DNA from: Pelodera strongyloides
Taxonomy: Eukaryota > Nematoda > Chromadorea > Rhabditida > Rhabditidae
DNA length: 64,000 bases
Assembly (NCBI GenBank): GCA_036852015.1
Contig: JAANDG010000126.1
Coordinates: forward strand, 186,001-250,000
Direction: 5' to 3'
Shown: one piece after another, positions 2,981 to 52,292 of the stretch
Layout: each line of letters opens with the position of its first letter
Position numbering within the stretch: the stretch's first letter is position 1
Notes under the pieces: generated by a model
Told to the model about the DNA's origin: nothing
Seen by the model: only the letters and a program-made list of their open reading frames with translations
The model's database searches: none
Made by a program: the position numbers and the translations under genes

Positions 2981-3688
2981 ATATTGGCTCATGTTAAGCC
3001 TAAGTTAAGACCATATAGTGATCAAGTTTAGGTAGTGATTATGAGTTATTTACCTATCCGTCGACTCTAGTTCATAAGAGAGTTTGTTAGATCGCGTGTA
3101 TTGGATAGCTCTGTTGAAGGCAAAATTCACTACTAAAACTTGATCTACCATGACGAGTTAAGCCCCTGGTTTCCTTTTCGTTTTTGCCGTTAAGACAACA
3201 TGCAAAAATCAATGTACTTGGTGATTTCAGTACCCGTTACTCTACCGATAGATAGATATTTATTAACAAAAGACCTCCAAGTTTTCTTTAGAAAATTAAC
3301 ACCCCCACTGTATGTGATGAAATAAACGAGTCGATGTGGATGTTGGTTTTTTTCGTGAAATTCTTTTTATATGTGGAAAAAAGTTATCTTGCTTATGGTA
3401 AAGTTATATAAATCATCAAAGTCAGAAATAATAAATACTATTCGGAAGTAATTTAAAGATCTCTCAAGAGTACGACGAGACTGTTTCGTGAAGTCGCCGC
3501 AAGTGACGATCCTAATTTCATGACTAGGGTTTGTAGGTAGCGCGCCAGGCACGACTCCAATTAGCGCGCTTGTGGCGCTGCCCTTGTCCGCCATCGGTAC
3601 GCGGCAAGATTTCAGAGTTTCATCAGTCACAGCTAGGCAAAAAATGTTTATTTCTCAATATATACAATTGTATCGTACATGTAGTAAC

Positions 3689-6600
3689 TCAGTAGTTTGT
3701 GCATCGTTGTGGTTTGACGTGTTCCAAAAGTTTGTTGAGTCGTTCAACCGTTAGCTTGTAGACCTGAAAAGAATTAGAATAAATAATTTTTGTGACGTCA
3801 TATGAAATGGCACCCACTGGATGATTTTCGACCCGAAATAAAAACGCAGGCAGATGTTTATTCATTATTTTATGGTAGTTTGTAGTTCGTAGTAGCTCAT
3901 GGTTGTTTCGCGATTTTCTTCCACAATCATGAATTAAAATGAAAAGATTTATATTCTCCGTTTAAAACCTATGAACACAAATACTTACCTGTTCATTCTT
4001 CCTGTACGTGACCAGTTTTCCATCAACAATTTTTTCCTTTTCGAATATCTGAAAATTTACAAATAAATCAATAATTACTCAACCGAGCCTGAAGAGGTCG
4101 ACTAATTTGTCGACGGTATTCCGACTACAACTGCTTGAGCACACGGGTCGATATTTGTTTGCTACGACACATCAAGCAATTGCACCAGGTGAAAGTCACT
4201 AAACACGTATTTTGCAAATTTTGCTTATTTGGTCATAAATTTCGTGCAAATTTTTTTCTCTGGAAATTTAGCAGATATTATGAAATGTGGACTTTTCACT
4301 AATTAGACCAAAAGAATTTCAATTTTTGGTCCAGGACCAAAATCAGGGTGAAAACTGAAAAAAAGGCTCTCGGATCAAACCCAAACTATGTTAGCGCTAT
4401 CGCGCTAACAAAGTAATCAAAGAATATCTTATTATATAAATCTTATTATAAAGAGGAAGAGTTTGTCACGGGTTTGTTTTTATGTGCACAACGAAAGCTG
4501 TTCATAAAGAAGATTCCTCCAGTCGGAGAAGAGCCCATAGGGCTCTTCGAACGGCTGGTCTATGATAATTGATACCTCCGGACACCACTTTCTATTGAAT
4601 GATTCGATGGCTTGCGCTGTGGTCAGTTTCCCCTTTGTTGAATCGTAGGGATCTCCAACATGGCTGTCTCCATAGCCGTATCTGAACATGGAATAGTTTC
4701 CCGAAAACTTTAGAATACTTTTAAAAGGACTGTCACCCCTGAAGTCTAAGACAATACGCAATCTGCTAAAAATTATGTGTTTGAGTTAGAACTAATAAGT
4801 AGATATTTTTAATCTTTCTTGTAACTTGTAACTCACTTGTAAAGTTTCTCTTGGATCTCTTTGAGATGGTTTTCATTCTGAAGAAAGTAACTTTGTCACA
4901 AATATTATAATCCACATATCCTCAAGGTCTACTTTGCTTTCGTGAATCGCAAAGCGCCCATGAGTGTGAATAGTGCATCGCCTATCACTGATGTAACGAT
5001 CACCATTCTCTTGTCGCTATCGTTTTGCCTTCTGATTTTCTACCTTATTAAAGCGAACTACCTTAAAGAAAATTTTTTGAAACGCATCGTGGACAACTGA
5101 ATTTTTACGTATTTATGCTAGTAAATTGCTAGAATTCAGCTCGATTTTTTATTCTAATTTATGCTCATTTGCTGATTTGCATAATCTGCATAAGAGTTGA
5201 CTCAAAGAACTCAAAGGAGTTCTGAGGTGAAGATAGCTGTTTGGTTTTCACTATTTCTTTTTCTATGGAATAATGCTGCCGTCTTTATGATCCACTAGTA
5301 TGACCATGTTCGTTCTTTGATGTTTTGAGTGTTTAGACAAAAGTCGAATAATCTGCCGCTACCGATATTGATCAACGGAGCTCACCTTGCTGTCCCAGTT
5401 GAGCACGACCTCCTCCATTTCTTTCTTGGTGAGACTCGTCTTCCAAACGTTCTTGAATGCTCCGAGACTGTCGTAAAGTGTTTTCCAATCATAGTATCCG
5501 TTTATGTCCACTTTATAACTGACGCTGTTCTCGTGGTGAGCTTAAAGGATCGCAGTCACTACAAAATCGTCGTTTTTCTTCGAGTTTACTTGTATTTAGT
5601 AAAGAAAGGAGACAAATACTTTACCAAAACCGAATAATTTGAATTCCAACTCAGGGAGTGAACAAGTAGAAAAGTAGTTCTACTTAACTACAGCAGGATC
5701 ACGAAACGTGTTAATACAGCTGCTTCCCGATCGGGAATATTCAAATTATTTCGGCAAATATCTGCATATTATATCTTTACATATAGTGCAAGGGTCTGCA
5801 GGCATATCACTACACGTTTCATAATCCCGCGGTAGTTAAGTAGAACTACTTTTCTACTTGTTCACTCCCTGAGTTGGAATTCAAATTATTCGGTTTTGGT
5901 AAAGTATTTTTCTTTATTCTTTACTAAATTCAAGTAAACTCGAAGCAAAATGATGATTTTGGAGTGACTGCGATCCTTTAAGTTGTTGAAATTTGAAGAC
6001 ACTTAGTACTAGTGGAAAAGAAGGAAACTCCGTCCAAACTGTGCAAACGCTCGTTTAAAAAATTAACTCACCAATAATATTCTGAGGAGCGACGTGCCAT
6101 TTGGTTTTGAGGTACGAGATCAACTTTTGAAGGCCTTCAACCTAAAATATTCGTTTTTATTTGCAAAAATGTCATAAGTATCATATGGTAGTCTTCTAAC
6201 ATCCTCTCTATCATGGTGTTTTTTTAATAGTATTCTCGCTATCATAGATTTGATAGTACACAAGCGTGAGTAATGGGTACGGTGCCAAGTGCCAACTAAC
6301 ATATGTGTTACTCGACTCGAGCCTCGCAATCCCTATTAATAATTTAAAAAAATCTTCGTTGCTCACCTGTGCCTTAGGAAGCGCGGTTTCTCCAGTGTTG
6401 ACTACTTCAATACCGACTGAACGCCCGTTTGTATCGGAAGATTTGGGATCCACACAGCTGGAAGAAGTTCACGTTTCACAATTTGTAGATCATAAAATAA
6501 TGTTTATCTTGCATCAACCACTGGCTGAAATATGCGGTGAATCTGTGAGTTTGTGCTTCCGCAAATTTTTGGGCACAGTCGCGGAGGAACGAAAATTTAA

Positions 6601-7419
6601 CGCAGTTTTTCCCCGTGTATTGTGCCGGACTTGAACCTTTTATCAAGATTGATATTGTATTGTATTCACTTGTTCCAGCTGCGTATGTCTAGTATTGTTT
6701 CCAATAAACAACAAATTTGTAACCTACCCATCGCCTCTCCACCACCCTGTGCCTGCGTGCCATGCTCTGTAGTAGTCATTTACCATACGATAGGCGGTAC
6801 CATCAACGTCCACTGTAATTATACCATTATCAAATAATAAATTAATAACTGTCCTTGCAGAACTAGGTCAACATAAAATCCACAAATCACATCAACTGAT
6901 TATATGTCGTGAAGTCAATTTTCTCCCGTGTAAACTTTTTTTTTAGTTACGTTTATTAGACGTTTTGGTGCTCAATTCTAAAGCATTATTGTCGAAGCTG
7001 AAACTCGAAATACAGTGGCCGGTCTCACAATATTTAGCGCAGTGGTAGTTTACAGGCGTCTCCTGATTAGCATGCTTTCTCGACCTTCTCTCGCAGCGCA
7101 GGAGACCTCCGGCCTGTAACCTACCCCCGCGTTAACTTTTGTGGTACGGCCTCTGCAATGGAATTTTACAAAATGTTGGCACAGGCACAGTTTTATCGCA
7201 GATACTGAAGCATTCACTGCACTGTGCTGGAAAAAACTTACAAATATATTGTACAGACAGTTTTCGTGCCAGTAGTACAGTAACTGTTTCCTTTAGCGTT
7301 TTGGTTACGGTATGATGGACGACAATTATACTTCGATCACGGATATTGGTCAACGTCGTGTCTTTCTCCATATCGTAGTGTAAGTAGTCGACTATTTTGA
7401 ATGAAGGTTTGAACTCACC
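3689..7419 (-). CDS. AmiD/AmpD-type N-acetylmuramoyl-L-alanine amidase, spliced, first exon not found
   Basis: Predicted zinc enzyme that cuts the MurNAc-L-Ala bond of peptidoglycan. Minus-strand exons in order: 7419-7242, 6812-6728, 6457-6367, 6141-6072, 5540-5386, 4877-4837, 4765 to about 4493, 4048-3989, 3763-3689 (TGA). The first seven join in phase (about 297 residues). Counting from 7419: zinc His H35 in VVHHT, then SVQYILVDVDGTAYRM, AWHAG at 76-80, SVGIEVVNTG at 101-110, second zinc His H143, catalytic Lys K151, zinc Asp D153. The H-to-D distance of 10 equals AmpD H154-D164. A C-terminal part with YGY (236-238) and AIESFNRKWCPE (259-270) resembles the bacterial AmiD tail (YGY...AFQRHFRP) rather than animal PGRPs. 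The join from exon 7 to the two 3' exons (FEKEKIVDGKLVTYRKNE; VYKLTVERLNKLLEHV) is out of phase, so a tiny exon or a frameshift is possible. No signal-peptide exon was found. An AATAAA lies near 3647 on this strand. The catalytic residues are intact. Confidence 0.87.
5048..5200. mobile_element. TTAA MITE family 1, degraded copy
   Basis: TTAA at 5048-5051, GAAACGCATCGTGGACAACTG and core recognisable; the right terminus is eroded. It lies in the intron between amidase exons 5 and 6. Confidence 0.7.
5542..5981. mobile_element. palindromic TTAA element, inserted at an amidase splice acceptor
   Basis: TTAA at 5542-5545 and 5978-5981 flank inverted arms of about 170 bp beginning AGGATCGCAGTCACT. 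The arms contain CAACTCAGGGAGTGAACAAG and AGTAGTTCTACTTAACTAC. On the minus strand the right-hand TTAA is followed directly by G and then amidase exon 5, so the TTAAG of the target duplication serves as the acceptor. Confidence 0.85.
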
Positions 7420-7463
7420 CTGCAAATAGGTACGGTATTTACAATAACTGGCAGAACTTAGTA

Positions 7464-7808
7464 TTAAAAATACATGCCGGCTTGTGAAACACATCGAGTA
7501 CACGAGTATTCTTATGTAGCTTATGCAAATGAACATAAATTAAAAAAAAATCGAGCTCAATTCAAGCAAACTGCATAGTGCGTAAGAATTCAGTTGTCCA
7601 CGATGCGTTTCAAAAACCGGCCGGTATTTCGCTTTTACCTGCCGGTTTTTGAAAAGCATCGTGGGCAACTGAATTTTTATGTATTTATGCGAAGTGGGGT
7701 CTAAATTAGGGTCTATTTTTTGTGCTAAATTGTGCTCATTTGCATATGACGCATAAGATTGTTGGTGTACTCGATGCGTTTCAAAAACCGGCCGGTATTT
7801 CGCTTTAA
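7464..7808. mobile_element. two TTAA MITE family 1 copies in tandem
   Basis: One copy spans about 7464-7636 and a second, in opposite core orientation, about 7637-7808 (TTAA 7805-7808). The two share a junction with terminus GCCGGTTTTTGAAA. It starts 45 bp upstream of amidase exon 1 as recognised. Confidence 0.8.
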
Positions 7809-8038
7809 GACGTGAGTGATGTGCCGCGTTTGCGCCAGGATTACTCCCAAGGTTCCTTTTATACAATATTCGCGGGGTAGGGTCACCTGCTCACCAAAAA
7901 GCTTCACATTGTTATTCTATCAAAAGCTTAAATATTTTCTCGGGTGCAAAATTTCCACTACATTCACAATCCCTTATTTCGTTTCATGCCAGACTTCAGT
8001 CTTGTAACACTCAAACGTTCAGTCAGCTGGGTTTGTTT

Positions 8039-8178
8039 TAGATAAGGTAACGGCTGGATGGATGTTTCTAGTCTGACCCCGAGCAGAAATCATTGTAGTA
8101 ATTAAATTCCGACGTTATCTATGAATTTGCGTCACATACTTTGAGGGTTTACAGTATTCCAACGAAATCACTGATAAG
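8039..8178 (-). promoter_or_regulatory. two GATA sites upstream of the amidase
   Basis: TAGATAAGG around 8039-8047 and CTGATAAGG at 8171-8179 lie 0.6-0.8 kb upstream of the first recognised amidase exon. A TATAAAAG box reads on the minus strand at 7857-7864. This fits a promoter between the saposin stop and the amidase, but the first amidase exon has not been found, so the link is tentative. Confidence 0.3.
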
Positions 8179-8833
8179 GCATCGGTGACTACCGTGATTA
8201 AGAAAAATGGCAACAAAAATCATGGTTTGCAGGTTTGCACGCAGAGCCTTGTGAAGATGCTTTTGTGAAGAACTTTGCCCAAAACACGTCAAAGGGTGGT
8301 GAATTAATTGCCGCTCACAAACAATCACTGAACAGCCCGAACACATCAGAATACGCTGCACAGCGAAAATATCAAAACTATGTCTAGTAGTAAGCTATAA
8401 CTATGGAATCGATGCTGTATAGTAGTAGTCGTGCGTTGCAGCTATGTATAGCTACTGCCAGTTTATGCAGGTTTCACGTAATGTAGCGAGAATTTCGAGT
8501 AAAAGAATTCGGACATATTGGGAATAGAGATGGCTTTATTGATTCTCCGACTCAACCAAAACAACGCGAAACAACAAAGGTCTTATGATTTGACTCGCTA
8601 CCGGCTTGTTTGCCACGTGTGCGCCAGGAGCGCGCTATCATTGTAAGCCCCGTGGCGTGCTCGTGTCACATAAGCAAACCACCGATATTTTCTACAGTTG
8701 ACGTCTGTGTTTGTCTATTTTGATAGACTCAGACAGTTTCTGCCTTTGGTCTATCAAAATAATGGCTGTTACATAAGTGCTCTCATACCTCTCATACTTA
8801 TTGTTAGGTAATAGGTACTATGGAGTAGATTTA

Positions 8834-10781
8834 TTACATTAGGTAATAAGGCTCTCCTACCGATACATCGCAGAAACCCATATCAGCGCACGTTGTTCCA
8901 ATATGCATTCCCGGCGCTGGGTCGTTTGCGTCATCATATATCTTACCGAAATTATATCTGTAAAATACAATATATTCTCATGTGACATATTCCATATACC
9001 CGAAAATATTTGCCAGCGCGCCAAAACCAAGAGCTGCGCCCACATTTGCCGAGAATTTCTAATTGCTTGTAATGTTCTCAAAAGTTTGGTTTAGGCTAGA
9101 GTTTGAGTGGCTCCTCACACAAAAAAATACACGTACAAAATACTTTATAGTAAATAATTAACCGTAATCCCCACATACCTCGCAAGAAGTTGCAAAAATT
9201 CTTGAGCATCGTTTGCATATTGCTTGAAAGTTGATTCGGTTTTCGTTTTCGCCTGTTCGTACGGTATGCCTGGTAAAAAATTGTTTCCCGCACAGAATGT
9301 AACATTATTTGCACATACAGTTTCAAAAACACATGACATACCGCTTTAAATGAAAATGCCTATGCCGCACACTAAAGCGAAATACCGCCCGGTTTTTGAA
9401 ACGCATCGTGATCGTGCACAGCTGAATTCTTACGTATTTATGCAAAGTTGCTCGAAATTAACTCGATTTTTTATTCTAATTTATGTTCATTTGCAAAAGA
9501 TGCATACGAATGCTGGTGTACTCGATGCGTTTCAAAAACCGGCCGGTACTTCGCTTTAAGAGGATTAAAAGTCGCTTTCAATTTTCGTACCCTTTATCGA
9601 ATCCACATACTGCGCGATTTTGTGACAAATTGTGCACTCATTAACGGCGTTTACCTAAACGGAATAGAAAGTACAGATGGTATGTATGATGTATGCTCTG
9701 ACCTGATAACAATATATATCACTGTGAATAAAGCAGCAATTCGTAGGTGTGCGGTTCGGCCGATCTACCTGACGCCGTACGCAAAGAGCAAAAAAATAAA
9801 TTTTTCTTGGGGTGAACGCTCCCAACCCGACACTATTTCGAAAGACCGAAAAATTGGTATAGTAAAAATTGTGTCACCATATCTATTTGGTTATTTGTGA
9901 TAGAAATGCGAATACTACCGTAAGAAACCCTTTGCGTAGCTGCATAACACTGCCAGGAAGTCCAGAAAGAATTTTTATTAATTAACACTTTAAAGGATCG
10001 CAGTCAAATTCGTCTTTTTTATTCGCTTTTCATTAAATATTCAAATATGTGAAGAAAAATACGGTTCCAGCACCAAAGTACAGCAAAACGAACTCAGGGA
10101 GAGAAATCACTGCGTATGAGTTTTACTTACCGTAGTTTATAATTGCCCGTACAGCAGTTCATAATCATAATAAACACCCTGCAGTGATAAACCACACGCC
10201 GGTGTAACACTGCAAGCTGTTCACTCTCCAAGTACCCCTGGCAATTGCATATATGCACCGGCGAAGGTCATTTACCGAAACCCATTTTCATTGATTTCTC
10301 TCCCTGAGTTCGCTTTTATGTGGCTTTTTACTGGCTGCATATTGTTTTATGAATCTTCTTGCATTTAATAAAAATCGAATAAAAAAGTTGAATTTGTAGT
10401 GACTGCGTCCCTTTAATGTATATGAAATTTGCATAGTTCCGATTATACAAACCATATTTTGTTTGCCAAAATGTGAAACATATGAATAATCAACTTACTT
10501 TAAAGTGGTATAATAGGCAGTTTTTGAAGCGTGTTTTGGACTCTGCATTCCTATGTATTTATTCTACGTGAGCTCTAGTTTTTGTGCTAATCATACTCGT
10601 TTGCACATGATGCGTAGGAATGCAGTACTGGAAAATCCGTTTCAAAAACCGGATGTTATACCACTGTATGTTAATAGGCGACCACACAAGACCAATTTTA
10701 AAATAACTTTAAAAATTCAGCTTCTGAACCTACACAAACGAGTGTCGATATAAGAAACGCGAAGAAAATTTTCGTCATCAT
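8834..10781 (-). CDS. secreted saposin-like protein (SPP/caenopore type)
   Basis: Small secreted membrane-active protein; family members kill or digest bacteria in the worm gut. Minus-strand exons: 10781-10734 (signal peptide MMTKIFFAFLISTLVC), 9654-9591 (VNECTICHKIAQYVDSIK), 9269-9179 (ENRINFQAICKRCSRIFAT), 9058-9000 (KFSANVGAALGFGALANIF), 8957-8834 (NFGKIYDD, then TTCADMGFC, TAA). The six saposin cysteines fall as C-x2-C in exon 2, AIC and TSC in exon 3, TTC and GFC in exon 5, about 128 residues in all. Phases agree except exon 2 to exon 3, which is off by one base: exon 2 leaves one base and exon 3 needs two. Thus a mini-exon, a different donor or a frameshift (young pseudogene) must be considered. 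Intron 1 holds a 427-bp palindromic element and a second MITE; intron 2 holds a TTAA MITE. It lies upstream of the amidase on the same strand. Confidence 0.78.
9320..9349. mobile_element. end of a TTAA MITE family 2 copy
   Basis: Family 2 termini read TTAAAGCGGTAT inward with ACGTGGTTTTGAAA. Only one end is clear here (TTAA 9346-9349), lying just inside saposin intron 2. Confidence 0.6.
9372..9559. mobile_element. TTAA MITE family 1 in saposin intron 2
   Basis: Both termini well kept (TTAA 9556-9559; CTAA at the left). The right end is 31 bp from the donor of saposin exon 2, close to the place where the reading phase fails. Confidence 0.85.
9990..10416. mobile_element. second copy of the palindromic AGGATCGCAGTCA TTAA element
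   Basis: TTAA at 9990-9993 and 10413-10416. Same termini as the 5542-5981 element and the same arm motif (CTCAGGGAGAG / CTCTCCCTGAG), about 427 bp, more diverged. It lies inside saposin intron 1. Confidence 0.8.
10500..10674. mobile_element. TTAA MITE family 2 (diverged)
   Basis: TTAAAGTGGTATAA at the left, GTTATACCACTG near the right, TTAA at 10500-10503 and 10671-10674, with the core pattern shared with family 1. Lies in saposin intron 1. Confidence 0.7.
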
Positions 10782-10837
10782 AACACGGAGTGAAGATCGC
10801 GTGCCGCAGATCTGTACCCTTCTGATATACTCTGATC

Positions 10838-10910
10838 TGATAACAATTAAAGAAGAGATAAGAAGGAAAGACCGAAAAGTGAAATATTTCCACGTTGTAT
10901 TTAGCTTATC
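10838..10910 (-). promoter_or_regulatory. cluster of three GATA sites upstream of the saposin gene
   Basis: TGATAA (10838-10843), AGATAAG (10856-10862) and CTTATC (10905-10910) lie 57-130 bp upstream of the saposin ATG (10781). In Caenorhabditis, TGATAA-type sites bind intestinal GATA factors such as ELT-2, which drive many gut digestive and antimicrobial genes. The sites are seen in the sequence; intestinal control is inferred. Confidence 0.5.
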
Positions 10911-13678
10911 TGCAAAATAATATAAACGTAAACAACAGTGTAGTTACACTACGTATTTCAAAGTAGACAGTGGAATTTTAACAAGATGAATTTTGACTTG
11001 CATATATTCTTCTCAGGAACAAGTTTACGTGTACGTAATTAATTAATTATTATTATTATTCTAATTTATAATACACGGTTAACTACAACGTGATGGTGCG
11101 GAGAACAAAAACCATTTCTCTCCCAAGCGCGCTGATCCTGAGCATCCTTTTAAGAAATGTATGGCACTGAGTCAAGTGTCAAGTTTTCGTTTATACGCCT
11201 ACCATTCGTTGTTCCAGGGAATCCGTTTCTCATAACACTCAAAACTAGTTAAGGAGGAGTTGGTAATCTAAAAACCCGATGAGTTACCGTAATGAAATGG
11301 CTTCCTCGAACATTACTTTTTCCCAATTGATGAGAAAACAACCATGAGTTTTGCTCTTGTTTTTAATTTTCATATTTTTTGTTCCAAGGCTGAAGAAAGA
11401 GAGCTTGCGTGCGGGCGCAGGGCGGGCGAATAGCGGGCCAGGAGGAACGGACCCGGGGGCAAATCATCGCCTGCGGTGTTCTGTGTTCACAAACGTAGTC
11501 TTTGCTCGAACATGAGGGGATCTAATTACATGTTTAGACGAAAGAAACAGAAATCATGAGTCAGTGTTTTCGATAAGAAAGTCGAAAAAAAAACAATAAA
11601 AAGGAAGAAAACAGAACCTTCACGAATGCTCTAAATGATCGAGAACACTTCGAAATCACCGTTGTTGTGTTCTTCTACTCGGGAAACACATCACCATGTA
11701 TTACCATGATATTTTAATGTTTCAGTACTAATATGGGCTCTGAACCTAACACGCGCATTGCGGTTTTGCAGGAGTACCATGCGGGAAACTATGAGCATAC
11801 CTAGATATCGGAAAAATTCGAGCGCACACCACGCGGGAAAGTCTGCGTACTAACTCTGACCAGGCGCGTACGTCTGCGCGCACACCCAAAACGCGCGGGA
11901 AATGCCCTCAGAACGTAGTAGCATCGAGATACATTGATGGTGTGCGAAACTATATTTGTACCCTAAATAAGTCTGGCACTATGAAGTGGTTTGAATAAGG
12001 ACTAAAAGGAAGTTAGTGCAGTTAATGCAGCAACACACCAACAAGGGATTGCCAGCATAATATTTATTTCCATATTAAATAGAACATTTCCCCTCGTTTT
12101 CTATGTATTTCCCTCAAAAAATGACCACATCTCGAGAGAGCGGGTGGCTCGGTTGGCCTGGTCACATTGTCACATGCTTTCTGTGTATATGCTCGGGGTT
12201 TTTCTTTTTCTTTTTCGTTCTTTTCTTCGTTTTCTGGGCCTCTGGCCACATGCCAGAGGGCCCATTCTCGAGGCCATTCCGAACGGGCAAAAGGCCGTTC
12301 CGCAGAGTTTTTTTTATCAATACATCCAGCTGACAGGCTTTAGTATCCAAGCTTTAGTAACGCTTGACCAAGTAATGTCGTGCATTATATGATCAAACAA
12401 CTGATGTTAGGGAAGAGTAGTGAATGCAACATATAGCGGACCTCGGGTCGAAGCTGATAAAAAAAGATCATTGGTATGTATTTCCATATAAATCCTAGGA
12501 AATAAGTATAATTGGGAATAAATATTTATGATCTTGGCGATAATGTAAAATGTGAAATCATAAAACTCAATTCCGAATAACCGAGCAAGGTGCTAGTTTT
12601 CAAATATGCAGGAACCACCCAAGCAAGGGGTATCTTTGAGCTTTGAGTGTTAGCCGTGTAAGACTATGTTCTGTTCGAACCGAAAATTTTGTATTACCGT
12701 ACTTATTATGATCATCCAATTTTTTATGGTTTGTTTGGACATCACACTTCTCGGGAGAGCGATTTTAGTGCTAACTACGGTATCTCTTTCCTCGGCGTTG
12801 GAATTTCTAATTTGTGCTGAAAATCTACTTTTTTTCGCGTGGACTCGAGCTTTCTCTTTGTTTCTGTTTATCTTTACCTTCTTCTCATAATTCTGCAAGT
12901 ATGGTTACATCAAAGAGAACAATTGTTTTAAGTTTTAAGCGTATTCAGAAACGTACAGTGTGTATCAAAAGGATTTAATCATACGCAACTATTTTCGGCC
13001 TCGCTTTTTGCCCCATAATACAGTTGTTTTTTTGCTACTATAGGTGTACATGTATTATGTTTCTAATTTGATTATTAAATTCGTATAGTGTTCCACCTTG
13101 TTGCACTATTTTTGTGCATGGGAGTGTTGTATATGTATGTTACAGAGAGGGAAAAAGAGGAGGGAGAGAGGGAGCTAGAGAGAGAAAGAGAGAGGGAGCT
13201 AGAGGGAGAAAATAGAGAGAGAGGGACTAGGGGCTCATGGATGTGAGGCGTTTTTCGTATAGTGGTTTTTCTATCTGGGAAGGCTGCTCAGTACGCACAG
13301 CTCCACTATACAAAAGAAGGCCCCGGACATGTGTACTAAAGACCGCCTTTGGAATGAAAAAGGGCATTTTTTAGGAAGAGAGAGAGAGAAAAGAGAGAGA
13401 GAGACAGAGAGAGAGAGGGGAAATCTAGAAAAATAGTTGTATACTATGTATACATCTATATTCATAGTAAAATTTCTAATAATACACCGGAGTTCGCGGC
13501 CACATGACCACTTCCGGACAAGAAAAAAGAGCGCATTGAAGGGCAAGGCTATAGTGTTATGATTGCGATAATTAAACTTCATTCATTGGTTATTTATTAT
13601 ACAGCCATACATACGTCGTATCTCCGAACCACAACAACTACATATATCTCCCTAACAATGTGCGATCAAGATGTACCG
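10911..13678. other. gene-free stretch
   Basis: No exon with usable splice sites and family resemblance. It contains CpG-rich short runs near 11810-11910, a CT/GGCC-rich block at 12130-12310 and (GA)n at 13141-13230 and 13376-13421. A hydrophobic ORF at 12666-12890 is T-rich and not convincing. Confidence 0.5.

Positions 13679-42669: not shown

Positions 42670-52292
<9,623 letters not shown>

Follow-up and report, generated by a model that had tools for sequence, protein, structure and literature searches.

A predicted Pelodera strongyloides gene that joins a saposin-like domain to an AmiD-type amidase of likely bacterial origin

How a peptidoglycan amidase of bacterial type came to be encoded in a nematode chromosome, and what it may do there, is the question raised by a 64,000-nucleotide stretch of Pelodera strongyloides DNA (assembly GCA_036852015.1, contig JAANDG010000126.1, positions 186,001 to 250,000; here called the window). 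An initial annotation, made from the letters alone, placed an amidase gene at 3689..7419 and explained it by horizontal transfer from bacteria. The window is here predicted to hold a 13-exon nematode gene on the minus strand, running from 10781 to 3689. We regard it as fairly probable that its product is a secreted protein, built of a signal peptide, a saposin-like domain and a bacterially acquired AmiD-type amidase, that cuts the walls of bacteria met or eaten by the worm.

The modelled coding sequence comprises 1161 bases over the 13 exons and translates into 386 residues with no inner stop; all 12 introns are GT-AG and measure 155 to 1441 bases. A spliced aligner run with a profile built from four Mesorhabditis proteins scored 896.7 on window positions 3401-11000 of the minus strand, against 83.6-111.1 on 14 controls, namely the reversed sequence, the opposite strand and six further stretches of the window in both orientations; it also supplied the exon at 9654-9591 and the start of exon 11 at 4681. 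The nine exons with worm-type splice sites described earlier are present as exons 5 to 13 (7419 to 3689), and the 3' part of the proposed span stands. Its 5' limit had to be moved: the 5' exon reported as missing was located, as four upstream exons in phase with the remainder of the gene. Exon 1 (10734..10781) carries the start codon and a predicted signal peptide (MMTKIFFAFLISTLVC) and ends at the donor GTAGGT; the aligner picked a donor 6 bases earlier, which leaves the frame unchanged. Exon 2 (9591..9654) completes the signal peptide and contributes the first two cysteines, a pair (CTIC), to the saposin-like domain, whose middle lies in exon 3 (9179..9269) and whose end (TTCADMGFC) lies in exon 4 (8861..8957). 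Amidase_2 starts in exon 5 (7242..7419) with the first zinc ligand and continues through exon 6 (6728..6812; RAWHAG), exon 7 (6367..6457; GIEVVN) and exon 8 (6072..6141) into exon 9 (5386..5540), which encodes the further zinc ligands and catalytic lysine expected by analogy with AmpD and AmiD. Exon 10 (4837..4877) covers the stretch between the amidase and an AmiD-like tail, which occupies exon 11 (4576..4681; YGYGD...AIESFNRKWCPE), exon 12 (3989..4048) and exon 13 (3689..3763), the last with the tail end (RCTNY) and the stop codon.

The amidase domain matches Pfam Amidase_2 at 1.3e-21 (77.7 bits against a curated cut-off of 26). The complete AmpD/AmiD catalytic set claimed by the initial annotation is borne out by H135 (VVHHT), E205 (GIEVV), H243, K251 (+8) and D253 (+10); the catalytic roles of E205 and K251 are those we assume from the AmpD pattern. 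The second zinc His followed by Lys at +8 and Asp at +10 occurs in 7/7 nematode tree rows and in none of three peptidoglycan recognition proteins (PGRPs), all of which have Ser at +8 and Gly at +10. Sequence searches of the PDB matched AmpDh2 (1.4e-12) and AmiD (1e-6), with no PGRP at E<=1. In the predicted structure of the family protein P0001, AmiD aligns across 218 residues, to residue 378, whereas AmpD aligns only to 267, and the predicted folds of two relatives match the AmiD type with its tail; the C-terminal module proposed earlier thus reappears at the level of fold. The PDB matches, the His/Lys/Asp pattern and these two predicted folds support a domain of bacterial AmiD type. Excerpts of a study of the aphid gene (PMC2829048) give the zinc triad of AmiD-type amidases as His, His and Asp and describe the C-terminal tail as distinguishing AmiD from AmpD. 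All seven family rows compared keep six cysteines (four in the saposin-like domain, C189 and C383), a set that would suit an extracellular protein.

Relatives of the gene have been found in other worms and in the same genome. A search of 5.8 billion proteins with the first version of the gene model gave 45 matches at E<=0.001, five of which, from Mesorhabditis belari and M. spiculigera, are 41-49% identical over 96% of the query; the remaining 40, bacterial by name or without organism name, cover 28-68% of it. A seven-row family profile gave 152 matches, and the 120 listed include the same five Mesorhabditis proteins and no other eukaryote-named row, most rows being without organism name, a result that does not show the family to be absent from other nematodes. 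Two different queries recovered at least two further copies in the P. strongyloides genome, of which C52 is complete and C291 is truncated where its contig stops; their contigs measure 435 and 176 kb. Both have their exons in the same order as the window copy, and the exon lengths agree too, barring small insertions and deletions. In total, this genome has three or more members of the family, and the two Mesorhabditis species contribute five proteins. The window and C52 copies differ by 0.40, 0.27 and 0.66 at codon positions 1, 2 and 3, a distribution of the kind that purifying selection on a protein produces. Where the window copy stops at CTNY, the C52 and C291 copies continue for 10 and 13 more residues. 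One of the M. belari proteins, P0005, is nearly identical to P0002 and lies on a contig of equal length (867484). It is without the exon for the second zinc His and the Lys and Asp that follow, which may reflect inactivation after duplication, alternative splicing or a gap in the annotation.

A chimeric contig or a contaminated assembly appears extremely improbable as the source of the gene, and no point in support of either was found. The assembly measures 159.9 Mb in 1171 contigs. The SL1 leader, in the form we take it to have, occurs at 634 places with at most two mismatches and its reversed control pattern at none, from which the genome is judged to be a nematode's; Rfam SL1 was placed at 32 sites, all below the gathering score, among the best 50 of 35,727 candidates scored. 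Contamination is rejected on the strength of the 12 introns, the exon boundaries shared with the two further copies, the recurrence of an intron element at many genome places and the Mesorhabditis relatives, and the placement of the gene in a nematode chromosome by the initial annotation is supported. As a separate observation, SL1-like RNA genes form arrays at C26:1200-12400 and on C857, the C26 copies carrying the exact SL1 leader every ~600 bases.

For the origin of the amidase, three trees were built. Of the bacterial proteins P0006-P0122, 108 of <400 residues were used; the 198 sequences in all were thinned by identity to 127, from which the trees took 113, 75 and 52 rows, the last with four phage rows (56 rows). 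C291 was left out of the 56-row tree and P0005 out of all trees. The nematode rows form one clade in each (100/99 to 100/100). In the 75-row tree the family stands on long branches beside planctomycete-like rows and rows without name (95/94), and a grouping with Bacteroidota was not rejected (approximately unbiased test, p-AU 0.198). PGRPs resemble phage amidases, and the four phage amidases were added as anchors. With them, the PGRPs join the phages (100/99.9), nematode+PGRP is rejected (p-AU 0.009, under a constraint that also splits the PGRP-phage pairing), and the family is placed among AmiD-type rows of bacteria, with beta/gamma-proteobacteria and Bacteroidota as its neighbours (80/81). 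Groupings with AmpD-like rows (p-AU 0.49), Bacteroidota (0.756) and P0046/P0007 (0.824) were not rejected either, and these constrained trees outscore the free search. Because several other groupings are unrejected, the trees, taken by themselves, show the family as an isolated long branch.

Several points weigh against a bacterial origin: nematode+PGRP was not rejected in the 75-row tree (p-AU 0.164), nor nematode+PGRP+phage in the 56-row tree (0.386), no donor lineage could be named from the three trees, and part of one paper speaks of a C. elegans PGRP orthologue as possible (PMC9533005). The first of these, together with the one fold that PGRPs and AmiDs are modelled to have in common, would suit an aberrant animal PGRP, vertically inherited and converged on AmiD. 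We consider such descent very unlikely, given its rejection once phage anchors were included, the Lys +8 and Asp +10 missing from 3/3 PGRPs, the AmiD tail of the family, the PDB sequence searches free of PGRPs at E<=1, and an excerpt of a review in which no PGRPs are listed for Nematoda (PMC7308585). A PGRP origin is thus disfavoured, yet two tests did not reject it or its wider version. The statement of the initial annotation that C. elegans lacks PGRPs agrees with that review and is qualified by the possible orthologue; a fragment of human PGLYRP1 had no match in the P. strongyloides genome, which by itself shows nothing. A likely acquisition of the amidase from bacteria is the best reading, because the branch is isolated, the zinc pattern and tail are those of AmiD, no eukaryotic relatives are listed outside Mesorhabditis and nematodes are listed without PGRPs. 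The transfer first proposed stands as that best reading; a position nested among bacterial AmiD rows has 80/81 support in the 56-row tree, with other placements unrejected, and the trees place no donor.

The 78 N-terminal residues (20-98) precede the amidase, behind the predicted signal peptide, and both parts lie upstream of the span first annotated. A saposin fold is predicted for this domain, as is secretion of the product. Saposins C and A are the only entries outside the amidase/PGRP fold listed among the structure matches of P0001, the saposin match covering 76 of the 78 residues at 1.8 A, and the cysteine spacing is within one residue of that of saposin C. Against the saposin assignment stand a set of four cysteines that corresponds to the two outer pairs, the inner nemapore pair being missing, so that the six cysteines and three disulphides of saposin-like proteins and nemapores are incomplete; the lack of any Pfam SapB_1 or SapB_2 match over the cut-off (the best, SapB_1 in the C52 copy, reaches 12.4 bits against 25.2); an hhalign probability of 2% against saposins C and D; and the absence of saposins from the 50 matches listed for a second structure model. 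All four would suit a helical pro-domain or a non-saposin fold, and hence an otherwise ordinary transferred amidase equipped for secretion, which we find doubtful in view of the match to saposins C and A and the cysteine spacing. No stand-alone relatives of the domain were found at E<=10 among 58 candidates, and a PDB profile search with it gave chance-level matches only (best NKG2-D, E 0.011). A cluster of small saposin-like genes lies elsewhere in the genome, at C26:44000-55000 (L110, L113-L116), in which a CxxC exon has a signal-peptide-like start and the last exon ends in IC-x5-C.

With a saposin-like domain in front of the amidase, a history and a mechanism may be proposed. An amiD-like gene of bacteria would have entered an ancestor of these worms, where it would have gained introns, joined a host saposin-like domain and been duplicated. 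The product would be secreted; the saposin-like domain may dock on, or disturb, bacterial membrane lipid, and the amidase, by analogy with known enzymes, would cleave the N-acetylmuramic acid-L-alanine bond and strip stem peptides from peptidoglycan. We infer a role in gut defence or digestion, which may equally take the form of killing bacteria, of breaking down those eaten or of clearing free fragments. A two-stage bacteriolytic enzyme of PGRP-less worms, whose own saposin-like domain breaches the membrane while the bacterial-derived amidase cuts the wall, is put forward tentatively. The same gene might instead dampen responses or aid digestion, acting on free peptidoglycan or on food already broken by lysozyme, with a saposin-like domain that anchors or sorts the protein and does not kill alone. 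The missing inner cysteine pair would agree with this, as would excerpts reporting that catalytic PGRPs can lower responses through peptidoglycan hydrolysis (PMC7308585) and that aphid AmiD is linked to symbiont wall metabolism (PMC9116674). We hold it to be rather unlikely, since predicted secretion, duplication and a membrane-active fold type would suit attack on whole cells, although none of these is a test.

Among known systems, the Escherichia coli AmiD (3d2y, 2bh7) and Pseudomonas AmpDh2/AmpDh3 are bacterial, lack a saposin-like domain and are ~20-30% identical to the P0001 model. The GDGC stretch (C189) of the nematode family is a gap in 13/13 bacterial rows, and its C-terminal Cys (C383) is matched by one of the 13 (P0018). 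The nearest analogue, acyloxyacyl hydrolase (5w78 and others), appears among the listed relatives of saposin and combines a saposin domain with an enzyme acting on bacterial lipopolysaccharide; it acts on acyl chains and, unlike the nematode product, is not an amidase. Excerpts on the amiD genes of Acyrthosiphon pisum and Diaphorina citri describe AmiD-type genes that likewise sit in an animal nucleus and to which a bacterial origin is ascribed; the aphid gene shares the AmiD tail (PMC2829048, PMC9116674). As described there, however, aphid amiD belongs to an insect, is raised in symbiont-bearing cells, has an apparent rickettsial origin and has two exons, and these partial accounts mention no saposin-like domain. 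An AmiD/AmpD-like gene is mentioned for the placozoan Trichoplax in the same excerpts (PMC2829048). Nemapores or caenopores (C. elegans SPP proteins) are nematode antimicrobials that also combine a signal peptide with a saposin-fold domain; in the portion of the survey consulted (PMC10506718) they have six cysteines and no other domain, whereas the window protein has four cysteines and a fused enzyme. Knock-down of spp-5 reduces killing of ingested E. coli according to the same portion, and sequences with additional domains were excluded from the survey, so that a saposin-amidase protein would have been passed over. Searches of open-licence PMC papers listed no report of a nematode AmiD or a saposin-amidase fusion.

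Bacteria are both food and surroundings for nematodes, yet the excerpted review (PMC7308585) lists no PGRPs for them. A duplicated and conserved gene family that couples a bacterial wall-cutter with a host fold of membrane-active type would fill this gap in a lineage-specific way, and would also show a transferred bacterial gene domesticated through fusion with a host domain, beyond the gain of introns and a signal peptide alone. The family is directly testable, because Mesorhabditis strains are kept in culture, as part of a further paper states (PMC7433073).

Elsewhere in the window, ten other open reading frames gave no Pfam match above the cut-off. Numerous TC/GA simple repeats at 17000-50000 translate into Ser-Leu runs in open frames, which are likely not genes, and an open frame at 47100-47360 contains a zinc-finger-like CHACRRRCSDIWNLLKHCYADHGLRIC, with no Pfam match over the cut-off. 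Within the gene, intron 8 contains an inverted-repeat element at 5541..5982, whose arms of 171 nt are 92% complementary and which runs up to the acceptor site of exon 9. At least 75 genome matches, its own two included, are listed for one arm (a lower bound, the best 40 of 1060 candidates being scored), and because these are mostly 88-99% identical the element may be young. More inverted repeats lie in introns 4, 2 and 1, at 7468-7800, 9373-9558, 10005-10396 and 10501-10668, and several of them have a common core near CGATGCGTTTCAAAAACCGG.
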